Shown here piece after piece: positions 27,729-48,011 of a stretch of DNA of 64,000 nt (within the stretch, counting starts at the first letter, position 1; the number at the start of each line of letters is the position of its first letter). The notes under the pieces are model-generated. The model searched no databases. It was not told the origin of the DNA and saw only the letters and a list, made by a program, of their open reading frames with translations. The stretch comes from Abyssibacter profundi (GTDB lineage Bacteria; Pseudomonadota; Gammaproteobacteria; Nevskiales; OUC007). A program made the position numbers and the translations under genes. The DNA lies in assembly GCF_003151135.1 (NCBI RefSeq), contig NZ_QEQK01000012.1, positions 62,001 to 126,000 on the forward strand, in the 5' to 3' direction.

Positions 27729-29834
27729 ATGCAAGCCAGCCTCACGGCCGATTCGCCGACTGCCACACCGCCTTCGCCACTGAATCCGGCGCAGCAAGCC
27801 GCCGCCGCCCACGGTGAAACACTGGCGGAAGGCGGCGTCCGCGCCGGCCCACTGCTCATCATCGCCGGTGCCGGCACGGGTAAGACCCAGACCCTGTCGC
27901 ATCGAGCCGCCCACCTGGTACTCAACGGCGTCGACCCGGCCCGCCTGCTGCTACTGACGTTCAGCCGCCGTGCAGCAGAGGAGATGACCCGCCGTGCGCA
28001 GTCCATCATCACGGCCACGCTGCGCGAACGCGGTGAGACCGCCCCCCAACTGCGCCTGCCCTGGTCCGGCACCTTCCACGGGATCGGCAATCGCCTGCTG
28101 CGCGAATACCACGCCAATCTGGGCCTGGATGCGCAGTTCTCGATTCTCGACCGGGGCGATGCGGCCGACCTGATGGACCTTTGCCGCCGGGCGCTGGACC
28201 TGCCGACCGGCCAACGCCGATTTCCGCGGAAGGACACCTGCCTGGGCATTTACAGCCGCACAGTCAACACCCGCCTGCCGCTGGCCGACGTGCTGTCTCG
28301 CCACTATCCGTGGTGTGCCGAGTGGGCGGATACGCTGAAGTCGCTGTTTGCAGCCTATGTGGCCCACAAGCAGCGCACGGCCTCGCTGGATTACGACGAT
28401 TTGCTGCTGTACTGGTGCCATGCAATGCAGGTCCCGGAGCTGGCCGCCGATATGAGCCAGCGTTTTGACCATGTGCTGGTCGACGAGTACCAGGACACCA
28501 ATGTTGTCCAGGCAGACATCCTGCGCGGCCTGCGCCCCGATGGGGCCGGCCTGACTGTCGTGGGTGACGATGCCCAGTCGATTTACAGCTTCCGTGCGGC
28601 CAGCGTTGAGAACATCCTCAACTTCCCCGAGCAGTTCGACCCACCGGCGCGCGTCGTGACGCTGGAACAGAACTATCGCTCCACCCAACCGGTACTGGAT
28701 GCGGCCAACGCCATCATCGCCCAGGCCAGCCGCGGCTATGACAAACACCTGGTGTCGGCCTGTGGTCAGGGGCCACGCCCGCGTTTTGTCACGCTGGAAG
28801 ACGATCAGAGCCAGGCGCTGTACACCGTGGAAACCGTGCTCGACAACCGCGAGGCCGGGCAGCGCCTCCGCGATCAGGCGGTGTTATTCCGGGCCAGTCA
28901 TCATGCCGATGGACTGGAGGTGGAGTTGGTCCGTCGCAATATCCCCTACCGGAAATTCGGGGGCCTGAAGTTTCTGGAAGCGGCCCATGTCAAGGATCTG
29001 CTGTCGATCTTGCGCTGGGCGGATAATCCGAAGAATCAAATCGCTGCGTTTCGCTGCTGCCAATTGGTGCCGGGGCTGGGACCCAAGGCGGCGGAAGCCG
29101 CTATGCAGTGGCTGACTGCACATAACCACGACCTGACGCAGCTGGCGCGGTTCAAACCCAGGGCACGCGCCGCTGACCTGGATTGCTGGCGGGCACTTGG
29201 TGAACTGCTGGGCCGATTATCCGACCCCAGCTGCGACTGGAACGGGCAAATCCAGGTCGCCCGACAATGGTATGAACCCCTGTTGCCATTACGGTACGAG
29301 GCGGCCGACGTCCGCGCAGCCGACCTCGCCCAACTGGAACAAATCAGCCTGCGCTTTAGCGATCGCGGCAGCTTTTTGACCGAACTGGCACTGGACCCAC
29401 CGGCGGCCACCGGAGACGAGGCTGGCGATCCGCTGCTGGACGAGGATTTTCTCATCCTCAGCACGATCCACAGCGCCAAGGGCCAGGAATGGGACAGCGT
29501 CTTTGTACTCAACGTGGCCGACGGCAATCTCCCCTCCGAATTCGGCACCGGCCAGCAGGAAACCATCGAGGAGGAGCGGCGGCTGACTTATGTCGCCATG
29601 ACCCGCGCCCGCACCCAGTTGCACCTGCTGGCGCCGCTGAAGTACTACGTGCCGGAGCAACCGCGGTACGGCAACCGCCATGTCTACGGTGCCCGGTCTC
29701 GGTTTTTCCCGGATGCCGTCATGCCGCATTTCGAATCGGTCACCTACCCCCAGGCGGATCCGGCCACGGCGCCGAACTCGCGCTGCACCGCACAGGTCGA
29801 TGTCGCCGCTGCCATGCGGGATATGTGGAGCTAG
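27729..29834 (+). CDS. UvrD/Rep-family ATP-dependent DNA helicase (SF1A)
   Basis: 701 residues, a 3'-5' superfamily 1 helicase. All motifs are visible: Walker A GAGTGKTQTL, the LTFSRRAAEEM motif Ia, VDEYQDTN (Walker B), GDDAQSIYSFRAA (motif III), LEQNYRST (motif IV), STIHSAKGQEWDSVFVLNVADG (motif V, in two parts) and YVAMTRARTQL (motif VI). Divergence in the 2B region suggests an accessory paralogue and not the housekeeping UvrD or Rep. The stop codon TAG at 29832-29834 uses the first two bases of the adjacent inverted-repeat element, so the present C-terminus (AAAMRDMWS) may have been set by that insertion. Confidence 0.93.
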   Translation: MQASLTADSPTATPPSPLNPAQQAAAAHGETLAEGGVRAGPLLIIAGAGTGKTQTLSHRAAHLVLNGVDPARLLLLTFSRRAAEEMTRRAQSIITATLRERGETAPQLRLPWSGTFHGIGNRLLREYHANLGLDAQFSILDRGDAADLMDLCRRALDLPTGQRRFPRKDTCLGIYSRTVNTRLPLADVLSRHYPWCAEWADTLKSLFAAYVAHKQRTASLDYDDLLLYWCHAMQVPELAADMSQRFDHVLVDEYQDTNVVQADILRGLRPDGAGLTVVGDDAQSIYSFRAASVENILNFPEQFDPPARVVTLEQNYRSTQPVLDAANAIIAQASRGYDKHLVSACGQGPRPRFVTLEDDQSQALYTVETVLDNREAGQRLRDQAVLFRASHHADGLEVELVRRNIPYRKFGGLKFLEAAHVKDLLSILRWADNPKNQIAAFRCCQLVPGLGPKAAEAAMQWLTAHNHDLTQLARFKPRARAADLDCWRALGELLGRLSDPSCDWNGQIQVARQWYEPLLPLRYEAADVRAADLAQLEQISLRFSDRGSFLTELALDPPAATGDEAGDPLLDEDFLILSTIHSAKGQEWDSVFVLNVADGNLPSEFGTGQQETIEEERRLTYVAMTRARTQLHLLAPLKYYVPEQPRYGNRHVYGARSRFFPDAVMPHFESVTYPQADPATAPNSRCTAQVDVAAAMRDMWS

Positions 29835-30172
29835 GGAAGCACTAATCTATTCGCGCCACCAAGACGGAGCCGGTTTTCGTGCGAGCCCAGGCGGAGTGAG
29901 TGCCGCTTGGTTATTCCAAGTCAGCGAACGACACGAATGCGTACGGAACGCATTCGGACGGCCGTAGGCCGGCCCGAAGGGCGAAGCGCATGGACGCGCT
30001 TCGCAACGCAGGATCGCGGGAAAACCGACCCGTTCCATCTGGATTGCGCCTGCAAACAGGCCAGACTGCGTTGCTCGTCGTTCATTTGGAATGACCAAAC
30101 TTCACTCCTCGCGCCTTGCCTGGCCTGTTTGCAGGCAGCAACTCGGCGGTGCGAATAGATCAGTGCTTCCCT
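29833..30172 (+). repeat. Cloverleaf inverted-repeat element, copy 1 (340 bp)
   Basis: Non-coding element delimited by imperfect 31-bp terminal inverted repeats beginning AGGGAAGCACT and ending AGTGCTTCCCT (27 of 31 match). Inside are two long hairpins in opposite orientation. Arm I has a perfect 17-bp stem (GCCTGCAAACAGGCCAG and its complement). Arm II has a bulged stem built on GCCGGTTTTC. Both loops contain the shared motif TTGGTYATTCCAA followed by GAACGAC and CAACGCAG. Same element as 47744-48011 in reverse, plus a 72-bp insertion. It sits exactly between the helicase stop and the stop of the convergent oxidoreductase (30178). TGGAG occurs at 29826-29830 and 30172-30176, a possible target duplication. 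No transposase is encoded. Confidence 0.88.
29933..30004 (+). repeat. 72-bp hairpin cassette present only in copy 1
   Basis: Aligning the two elements shows copy 2 running directly from GAACGAC to AACGCAGG, while copy 1 carries 72 extra bases between them. The insert is almost all hairpins: CGAATGCG/CGCATTCG (29934-29956), GGCCGTAGGCC, GCCCGAAGGGC, and GCGAAGCGC/GCGCTTCGC (29981-30004). Could be an independent REP-like unit inserted into the larger element, or ancestral sequence lost from copy 2. Confidence 0.7.
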
Positions 30173-47743: not shown

Positions 47744-48011
47744 AGGGAAGCACTGATCTATTCGCACCGCCAAGTTGCTGCCTGCAAACAGGCCAGGCAA
47801 GGCGCGAGGAGTGAAGTTTGGTCATTCCAAATGAACGACGAGCAACGCAGTCTGGCCTGTTTGCAGGCGCAATCCAGACGGAACGGGCCGGTTTTCCCGC
47901 GATCCTGCGTTGTCGTTCACTGACTTGGAATAACCAAGCGGCACTCACTCCGCCTGGGCTCGCGCGAAAACCGGCTCCGTCTTGGCGGTGCGAATAGATC
48001 AGTGCTTCCCT
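47744..48011 (-). repeat. Cloverleaf inverted-repeat element, copy 2 (268 bp)
   Basis: Reverse-oriented relative to copy 1. Terminal inverted repeats are perfect over 31 bp (starting AGGGAAGCACTGATC). Arm I: perfect 17-bp stem, 47780-47796 with 47852-47868, loop motif at 47808-47850. Arm II: stem of GACGGA plus GCCGGTTTTC with a 4-base bulge, loop motif at 47905-47951 on the other strand. Both loops share GGAGTGA, TTGGTYATTCCAA, GAACGAC and CAACGCAG. The element lies between the two pieces of an isomerase-like gene, and its last base forms part of the TAA stop of the upstream piece. No obvious target duplication and no coding capacity. Confidence 0.9.

Follow-up and report, generated by a model that had tools for sequence, protein, structure and literature searches.

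The repeat element found twice in the window (the whole 64,000-nucleotide stretch of Abyssibacter profundi contig NZ_QEQK01000012.1 analyzed here) is most probably a non-autonomous, MITE-type transposon: IS5-type ends enclose a body that is no remnant of an insertion sequence (IS). Within this body a ~100-nt module occurs twice, in inverted and diverged form, and appears to be kept for the function of the folded single strand; we give this joint reading a probability of roughly 0.72. In a broad range of bacteria, the folded shape of the arms is conserved more than their letters. This suggests that the folded strand itself has a function.

Architecture of the two window copies

Measured between its terminal inverted repeats (TIRs), copy 1 spans 29833–30172 (340 bp) and copy 2 spans 47744–48011 (268 bp), in exact agreement with the positions in the original prediction; the TIRs, put there at ~31 bp, measured about 30 bp in both copies. 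The body of the element is a pair of inward-facing arms of ~100 nt each, separated by a ~7-nt hinge and enclosed in the TIR stem. In copy 1, the left TIR (29833–29862, plus strand) precedes arm A (29864–30033, sense strand plus), a long form whose layout is borrowed from the fold of another locus (L002), which the same folding script parsed differently from copy 1 itself. Arm A carries an optional 72-bp domain of small hairpins between the motifs GAACGAC and AACGCAG (29933–30004, plus strand), and this single insertion accounts for the 72-bp difference in size between the copies. Arm B of copy 1 (30043–30142) is a short form with its sense strand on minus, facing inward, and is followed by the right TIR (30143–30172, minus strand). 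The TAG stop codon of the UvrD-like gene upstream of copy 1 (27729–29834) spans the insertion boundary.

Copy 2 has two short arms. Its left TIR (47744–47773, plus strand) is followed by arm B (47774–47873, sense strand plus), which contains a G.A helix and the inner hairpin TTTGG-TCATT-CCAAA. The hinge between the arms (47874–47881, CCAGACGG) can be drawn as a mini hairpin, and arm A (47882–47981, sense strand minus) and the right TIR (47982–48011, minus strand) complete the element. This layout bears out the description of two related cassettes placed head-to-head within one terminal stem, with differing stems and common inner motifs on opposite strands. As had also been claimed, no transposase was recognized inside the element; the four mechanically called ORFs overlapping both copies (83–178 amino acids) matched no Pfam family.

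Copy number and distribution

The window's genome holds at least 28 TIR-bounded copies of 47–419 bp (20 full-size and 8 shortened). BLAST recovered 96 pieces of the element from the same genome, and a pattern search allowing up to two mismatches returned 76 TIR-like sites, compared with one for a reversed-pattern control. Beyond this genome, arms were found in 120 of 398 sampled Pseudomonadota genomes; copy 2 had no match as a query against phages and E. coli genomes. The searches of this genome and of the phylum gave both further copies and arms elsewhere. The element is short, multi-copy, bounded by TIRs and devoid of a transposase gene, as expected of a MITE.

Ends and target sites

The common ends of the element (GGGYCTGTTNAC), flanked by TA, match those of IS5-family insertion sequences, and we therefore read the element as non-autonomous and MITE-type. 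TA flanked both ends in 11 of 19 elements found by similarity in other genomes, in 8 of 20 found by their arms (after leaving out 5 of 25 with no locatable GGG) and in 5 of 15 copies from the window's own genome, neither window copy among them. The higher count of 14/15 comes from elements fetched with a pattern that contained TA and is biased for that reason. Because CTAG sites are self-complementary, a target duplication of 2 bp is indistinguishable from one of 4 bp.

Nine of the 11 IS5-type loci examined have ends starting with GG, with TA on both sides; L302 and L306 showed no convincing IS ends. Among those nine, the GGGNCTGTTGAC form occurs on at least one end in loci from Paracoccus (L095), Aeromonas (L097; its protein is DDE_Tnp_1 plus DUF4096) and Acinetobacter (ISAba31, L299). 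For example, ISAba31, an IS5-family member, resembles the element in having the TIR GGGTCTGTTGACACTT on one end and TA flanks. In Azotobacter chroococcum NCIMB 8003, the cloverleaf occurs together with an IS5-family gene that has these ends; this is the one strain in which a co-resident IS with the same ends was seen; an IS4-family gene lies between the two ends of this IS, which is thus interrupted. IS5-family ISs differ from the element in that they carry a DDE transposase, and no arms were found in seven other IS5-type loci (L094, L095, L097, L098, L100, L125 and L288). Derivation of the body from an IS by internal deletion was not seen in these seven. The original prediction was to be refuted if the element proved to be the known end of a described IS; this holds for the common TIR, which the IS5 family shares, and not for the body, which does not derive from the ISs examined. 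Moreover, the likeness to IS5 in TIR and target applies to the common TIR; the variant of the window's own genome (GGGAAGCACTGATC) had no matching IS in the searches of plasmids, where only weak matches appeared (best E 0.6), and of the genome for PF01609.

Search for a transposase partner

A profile search of the window's genome found no PF01609 or PF13340 transposase. We also listed its single TIR sites and inspected by eye the ORFs at five such loci; with no PF01609 in the profile search, an autonomous partner in this genome was rejected. Across the 398 genomes, PF13340 was rarer in cloverleaf-positive genomes (19/120) than in the rest (104/278; Fisher p 1e-5); the remaining 101 of the 120 positive genomes, the window's genome among them, lacked it, which speaks against the reading proposed here. 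Although draft assemblies can lose IS copies, PF01609 was likewise absent from five one-contig genomes (G118, G122, G279, G432 and G191). In G162, which gave 46 PF01609 matches, none of the 14 loci examined was flanked on each side by the cloverleaf TIR of that genome; five loci from G250 and G230 were compared with the TIR of G162 only. An exact-pattern search of eight other genomes for TIR pairs spaced 600–1800 bp apart returned none, and four of these genomes had no match at all. No empty sites were found on the three plasmid records searched, nor was any transposition observed.

Fold and covariation

Both window copies are predicted to fold far more stably than shuffled sequences: copy 1 as DNA (z = -9.65; 0/100 shuffles as stable) and copy 2 as DNA (z = -14.02; 0/200) and as RNA (z = -14.57; 0/200). 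The folding script gave no simple cloverleaf parse for copy 1 (L001) and three other loci (L010, L012 and L014). From 82 arms, 51 were picked to limit near-duplicates, and compensatory changes occurred at 31 of the 32 predicted pairs. Four second arms among the 82 had tied or near-tied orientation scores (L071, L083, L087 and L089); we assigned them manually to the minus strand, and a later model search agreed; 7 of the 121 matches in the first model-match set were left out (five antisense duplicates and two partial matches).

A second set came from 80 loci fetched by TIRs and spacing only (L163–L242, the listed 80 of 120 matching stretches). The 82 TIR pairs at these listed loci enclose an arm in 78 cases and both arms in 67. 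The 150 other arms from the same listed loci (147 of them distinct; four, at two Azotobacter loci, nearly identical to arms of the training set) had 94.5% of cells paired, compared with 55.4% after shuffling and 35–45% when slid, in an alignment fitted to a covariance model that assumes RNA pairs. Double-change cells numbered 1719 versus 488 in shuffles, and the covariation score was 0.945 versus 0.211. Double change at all 32 pairs is not telling alone, since shuffles reach 30.0. The geometry is equally constant: arm pairs face inward in 53/53 cases in one set and 68/68 in the TIR-found set, the gap between arms is 5–8 nt in 50/53 and 6–9 nt in 64/68, respectively, and 66 of 76 arms are 98–101 nt long. 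The element thus has a four-way fold whose stems covary in both the 51-arm and the 150-arm sets, as anticipated. Compensatory pairing and inward arms in loci fetched by their TIRs alone are evidence that the fold of the arms is under selection.

Correction of one stem half by the other is a known mutational route and would yield changes that look compensatory. A plain MITE could in this way keep its palindromes perfect by mutation alone, through template switching or gene conversion, and its fold would have no function. At two loci (L101 and L105), arms score as if inverted where they stand, which suggests that stem halves do recombine. However, such a process would not hold arms close to 100 nt and hinges close to 7 nt in length, would not maintain positions at which G.A and Watson-Crick pairs replace each other, and would not favor one strand of the arm with the TIR stem unbiased; we consider it improbable.

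G.A helix and strand bias

The motif that the original prediction placed in the loops is indeed shared by the arms; it is not an open loop, being largely a helix with G.A pairs. Columns 34–70 and 35–69 hold G.A in 32 and 28 of the 51 arms and Watson-Crick pairs in 19 and 20, in a register taken from one sequence before counting, and the swap was repeated in the 150 arms. Mismatches in the outer stem of the arms were also uneven, with G.T outnumbering A.C by 106 to 43 in the first set. In the TIR-found set, the counts were 159 G.T versus 45 A.C and 74 G.A versus 12 T.C. As a control, the TIR stem had no bias (52 G.T versus 61 A.C; 20 G.A versus 20 T.C). Mismatch tolerance is therefore shown to be strand-specific in the arms and absent from the TIR stem. 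The conserved inner region looks like a recognition site, in keeping with the earlier proposal that a protein recognizes it.

Tandem G.A pairs are stable in DNA too. The arms could serve as a folded single-stranded DNA (ssDNA) substrate, exposed at replication forks or during transfer, with a protein of the host or of the transposition machinery binding the arms or hinge. Most hinges read CCGNAGG (46 CCGAAGG, 20 CCGCAGG and 6 CCGGAGG among 110, strands collapsed), which on one strand is of the GNA triloop type, known to form unusually stable mini hairpins in DNA. The stability of copy 2 folded as DNA (z = -14.0) and the lack of orientation bias of the element relative to genes (10 versus 10 insertions in tandem gene contexts, 6 unassigned) also fit; without such bias, nothing ties the element to a transcript. 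On its other strand, however, the hinge is a UNCG-type loop, equally typical of RNA, and the optional domain is held in common with an Rfam RNA family. An ssDNA role is a real possibility, though less likely than not.

Genomic context

Each window copy sits between the ends of two convergent ORFs, as would suit an element that softens the harm of its own insertion by acting at gene ends as an RNA end-stabilizer or a transcription stop for readthrough from both sides. The strong fold and the share of convergent sites (24 of 74 classified insertions versus 46 of 251 other gaps at the same loci; 8 insertions at locus edges excluded and ORF calls crude) are consistent with such a role. Yet 15 of the 74 insertions are divergent and 35 are tandem. 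Scanning the surroundings of copy 2 for promoters and terminators gave neither, and no T-run terminator signature. We regard this explanation as rather unlikely, at about one chance in four.

Comparison with known elements

The passages available from the MITEPsy1 report (P. syringae pv. phaseolicola) also describe a non-autonomous element, marked "IS5?" by its authors and linked to ISPsy2, that inserts at CTAG or YTAA and was caught transposing (PMC3189936). MITEPsy1 differs in its length (100 nt), 18-nt TIR of other sequence and 4-nt duplication; those passages mention no conserved folded body and confine well-conserved copies to relatives of P. syringae, similar sequences being noted elsewhere (PMC3189936). 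MITEAba12 of Acinetobacter, according to the corresponding excerpts, is likewise tied to its proposed mover by TIRs only and has a body untraceable to that IS, but it is 113 bp long and AT-rich, with a 9-bp target duplication and the TIR GGCTTTGTTGCACAAA (PMC6382973). Our search of the open-licence PMC literature returned no description of the present element; ISfinder was outside its scope, so this absence is weak evidence.

The plan of paired, inverted, folded and intergenic units resembles that of REPINs, and GGAG occurs within the arm, as might be expected if the mover were a RAYT tyrosine transposase. GTAG/CGTC REPs and REPINs are indeed inverted, folded and intergenic in a published survey, but their units are 20–40 bp with a tetranucleotide tag and are RAYT-linked or have no known transposase (PMC3733652). 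The element instead has 30-bp TIRs with IS5-like ends, and in many rows of the alignment the foot of the arm reads GTTGC or GACGG rather than a GTAG-type tag. The REP/RAYT comparison drawn in the original prediction thus finds no support, and we consider a REP/REPIN-type origin very improbable.

The optional 72-bp domain is related to the structured core of RtT RNA (Rfam RF00391), and one locus (L295) reaches the gathering cut-off of that family. The RtT-like units seen here differ from the element in terminating in a tRNA 3' end and in having no such TIRs. The window itself gave no gathering match to RtT, which was not listed up to E 5 around copy 1, and the window copies matched only Rfam families below their cut-offs, even at lax thresholds. 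Nine Rfam matches with E of at most 1 came from 14 sources in other genomes, and none reached the gathering score.

Proposed mechanism and significance

For the MITE-type element with functional arms, we propose that an IS5-family transposase would act in trans to move it. Each arm would work as a folded sense strand, with slightly better than even chances as RNA from transcription entering either flank and with lesser ones as ssDNA. Owing to the two-fold design, the strand read first starts with a sense arm in either direction of insertion. A host protein or nuclease may read the conserved CAAGGC / AACG part beside the G.A helix. Tentatively, and at a little under even odds, the arms could represent an undescribed family of structured nucleic acids that spreads in Pseudomonadota as an inward pair inside IS5-type ends, swaps ends between IS5 subgroups, shares a domain with tRNA-linked RtT repeats and borrows transposases rather than being a decayed IS.

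MITEs are usually viewed as empty IS shells. Here, the body keeps its shape over several bacterial classes even where the ends and the letters differ. This implies that a folded strand is under selection. If the strand is RNA, a widespread structured RNA would have been overlooked on account of its variable sequence. Furthermore, the RtT link would tie two orphan repeat classes together.

Structure and genomic context of the cloverleaf element

The two window copies of the cloverleaf element lie at 29833–30172 (340 bp) and 47744–48011 (268 bp), and the window sequence confirms the coordinates of the original prediction. The first copy is located between genes for a UvrD-type helicase and a flavodoxin-fold protein and the second between a GST-like gene and an open reading frame (ORF) without a Pfam match; convergent ORF ends flank both. 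Elsewhere, crude ORF calls placed 74 classified insertions in convergent (24), tandem (35) or divergent (15) settings. The boundary of the insertion often falls within an ORF stop codon (29832–29834 in the window, and many other loci). Stop codons in more than one reading frame come with the terminal inverted repeat (TIR), and insertions at gene ends may be tolerated for this reason.

The predicted fold is a four-way junction in which the TIRs pair into a terminal stem (about 29 bp), with two arms (A and B) and a tiny hinge hairpin. Arm length in elements of 262–269 bp ranges from 95 to 109 nt (98–101 nt in 66 of 76). The hinge is mostly 7 nt long and mostly CC-N3-GG; CCGAAGG (46), CCGCAGG (20) and CCGGAGG (6) occur among 110 hinges with strands collapsed. 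Elements L147 and L148 have a 31-nt hinge in place of the 7 nt. A single covariance model fits both arms, and we therefore regard them as two copies of one module that have diverged; this module points inward in all the arm pairs of two sets (53/53 and 68/68). Outside these pairs, one genome, G036, has single arms whose scores indicate an inversion in place (L101:196–295 and L105:91–190), which may reflect recombination between stem halves.

The genome holding the window (3.74 Mb assembly, 47 contigs) contains at least 28 copies bounded by an identifiable pair of TIRs, of which 8 measure 268 bp, 6 measure 340 bp, 6 measure 411–419 bp and 8 are shorter (47–182 bp); additional copies extend past contig ends. 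The size classes arise because a 72-bp domain is present or absent in each arm (arm A only in 4 copies, arm B only in 2, both in 6, neither in 8). The domain occupies the same place in both arms, and its two versions share 46 of 72 positions in a gap-free alignment (score 66 vs. at most 41 in 500 shuffles). The shortest copies comprise two TIRs and little else, as expected of a palindrome losing its middle. TIR-only remnants mark further sites (L031 and L035 in the same genome, 47 bp; G016:C51:16023–16044 and similar), some of them 22-bp palindromes. One sampled genome (G014) has 198 TIR sites at no more than one mismatch.

Covariation and strand bias in the arms

Selection probably keeps the folded arm pair, and this is the reading that we favour. 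In the training set, which draws 51 arms from the order and from plasmid records, compensatory changes occur at 31 of the 32 predicted pairs. A second set came from public genomes scanned by TIRs alone at fixed spacing. The 80 stretches analysed, of at least 120, contain 82 TIR pairs; 78 enclose a model arm and 67 enclose both, and no model arm lies inside the other four (L165, L175, L180 and the TIR pair of L213). These loci yielded 150 arms, of which 145 lie within the TIR pairs; four of the 150, from two Azotobacter loci, share 95% identity or more with training arms. Pairing cells reach 94.5% (vs. 55.4% shuffled and 35–45% slid). Double-change cells number 1719 vs. 488 shuffled, and the covariation score is 0.945 vs. 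0.211. Double changes at all 32 pairs are a weaker measure, since shuffles give 30.0, as is the pair-type count, which 34 of 500 shuffles reached. All these figures lean towards the model because the alignment was fitted to it.

The original prediction described an ordered motif in the hairpin loops. The motif is shared, but its segments are largely the two strands of a helix with G.A pairs rather than an open loop. One register has column pairs that swap between G.A or A.G and Watson-Crick. Among the 51 arms, the G.A and Watson-Crick counts are 32 and 19 at columns 34–70, 28 and 20 at 35–69, 32 and 16 at 37–67, and 33 and 17 at 38–66; pair 41–63 is G.A in 40. Sliding the register by 1–2 lowers the explained fraction from 0.86 to 0.34–0.62. 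The same pattern recurs in the 150 arms (for example, 80 G.A and 51 Watson-Crick among 148 at one pair, and 102 G.A among 143 at another), with a poorer fit next to the inner hairpin, where the last four pairs leave 49, 37, 61 and 68 arms unexplained. In each arm, just one of the two strands can form tandem G.A pairs.

Mismatches in the outer stems are also biased on the sense strand. G.T outnumbers A.C by 106 to 43 in the set that gave the 53 inward pairs (loci 36 vs. 8, 17 ties) and by 159 to 45 in the TIR-selected set (loci 49 vs. 8, 20 ties), sign tests on these partly dependent loci assuming independence. In the latter set, G.A outnumbers T.C by 74 to 12. The corresponding counts for the TIR stem, to which no sense can be assigned, are 52 vs. 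61 and 20 vs. 20 across the 82 TIR-selected elements. A cytosine-deamination bias on an exposed strand could, we infer, inflate the G.T excess; the G.A excess would be unaffected by it.

Spread and putative mover

Matches at E ≤ 0.001, by approximate covariance-model E-values, occur in 120 of 398 sampled genomes and 61 of 213 genera; 55 of the 120 belong to one family, mostly as many-contig genomes. Carriers of arms include Azotobacter, Halomonas, Stutzerimonas, Pseudomonas, Thiodiazotropha, Vibrio, Variovorax and Pandoraea, MAGs labelled Mariprofundus, Kiloniellaceae and, once, Acidobacteriaceae, and all five viral contigs matched by TIR pattern.

Most elements observed outside the window's genus have GGGYCTGTTNAC-like ends. 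Ends starting with GG and with TA on both sides were found in 9 of 11 IS5-type loci examined, and the form GGGNCTGTTGAC occurs on at least one end of the loci in Paracoccus (L095), Aeromonas (L097, its protein matching Pfam DDE_Tnp_1 and DUF4096) and Acinetobacter (L299), which measure 838–858 bp. Other cloverleaf TIR types, such as GGGCGTGTCGTCATAA in L082, resemble the end GGGCGTGTCCTCATTT of the IS5-type element L300. In one Azotobacter strain the cloverleaf coexists with an IS5-family gene that has these ends and is interrupted by an IS4-family gene. TA is present on both sides of 11 of 19 similarity-found elements and of 5 of 15 copies in the window's own genome, neither window copy among them. 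Counting against an IS5-type mover, the transposase family PF13340 had no match in 101 of the 120 cloverleaf-positive genomes, the share being higher than among negatives, and neither PF01609 nor PF13340 matched in the window's genome. For this reason we can only infer the mover, which may often be absent today.

The 72-bp domain and the proposed mode of action

The optional 72-bp domain is related to the core of the RtT RNA (RF00391) repeats behind tRNA genes. An alignment of the domain (29933–30004) with the RtT core makes a common hairpin order visible. Modest matches occur in other genomes of the order: G005 (L292, E 2e-7, no tRNA found in the locus), G021 (L293, E 4e-5, behind tRNA-Ser), G009 (L294, E 7e-5, behind tRNA-Asn), G003 (L295, E 1e-3) and, weaker still, G017. 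Rfam identifies L295:1429–1564 as RtT RNA (58.7 bits vs. a cut-off of 45). By reading, two units stand in tandem behind tRNA-Ser in L293 (1460–1755); the 3′ end of this tRNA closes each unit, and the domain lies within T-loop sequence. The domain itself may be a small mobile unit. The stretch L292:1481–1600 has a similar hairpin order with two CATGGAC loops and is possibly a third kind of domain carrier.

The link to an Rfam RNA, together with a two-fold layout in which a sense arm comes first whichever direction is read, slightly favours the folded arm acting as RNA over folded single-stranded DNA, which is a live alternative. The element probably moves like a MITE and carries with it a folded arm pair under selection.
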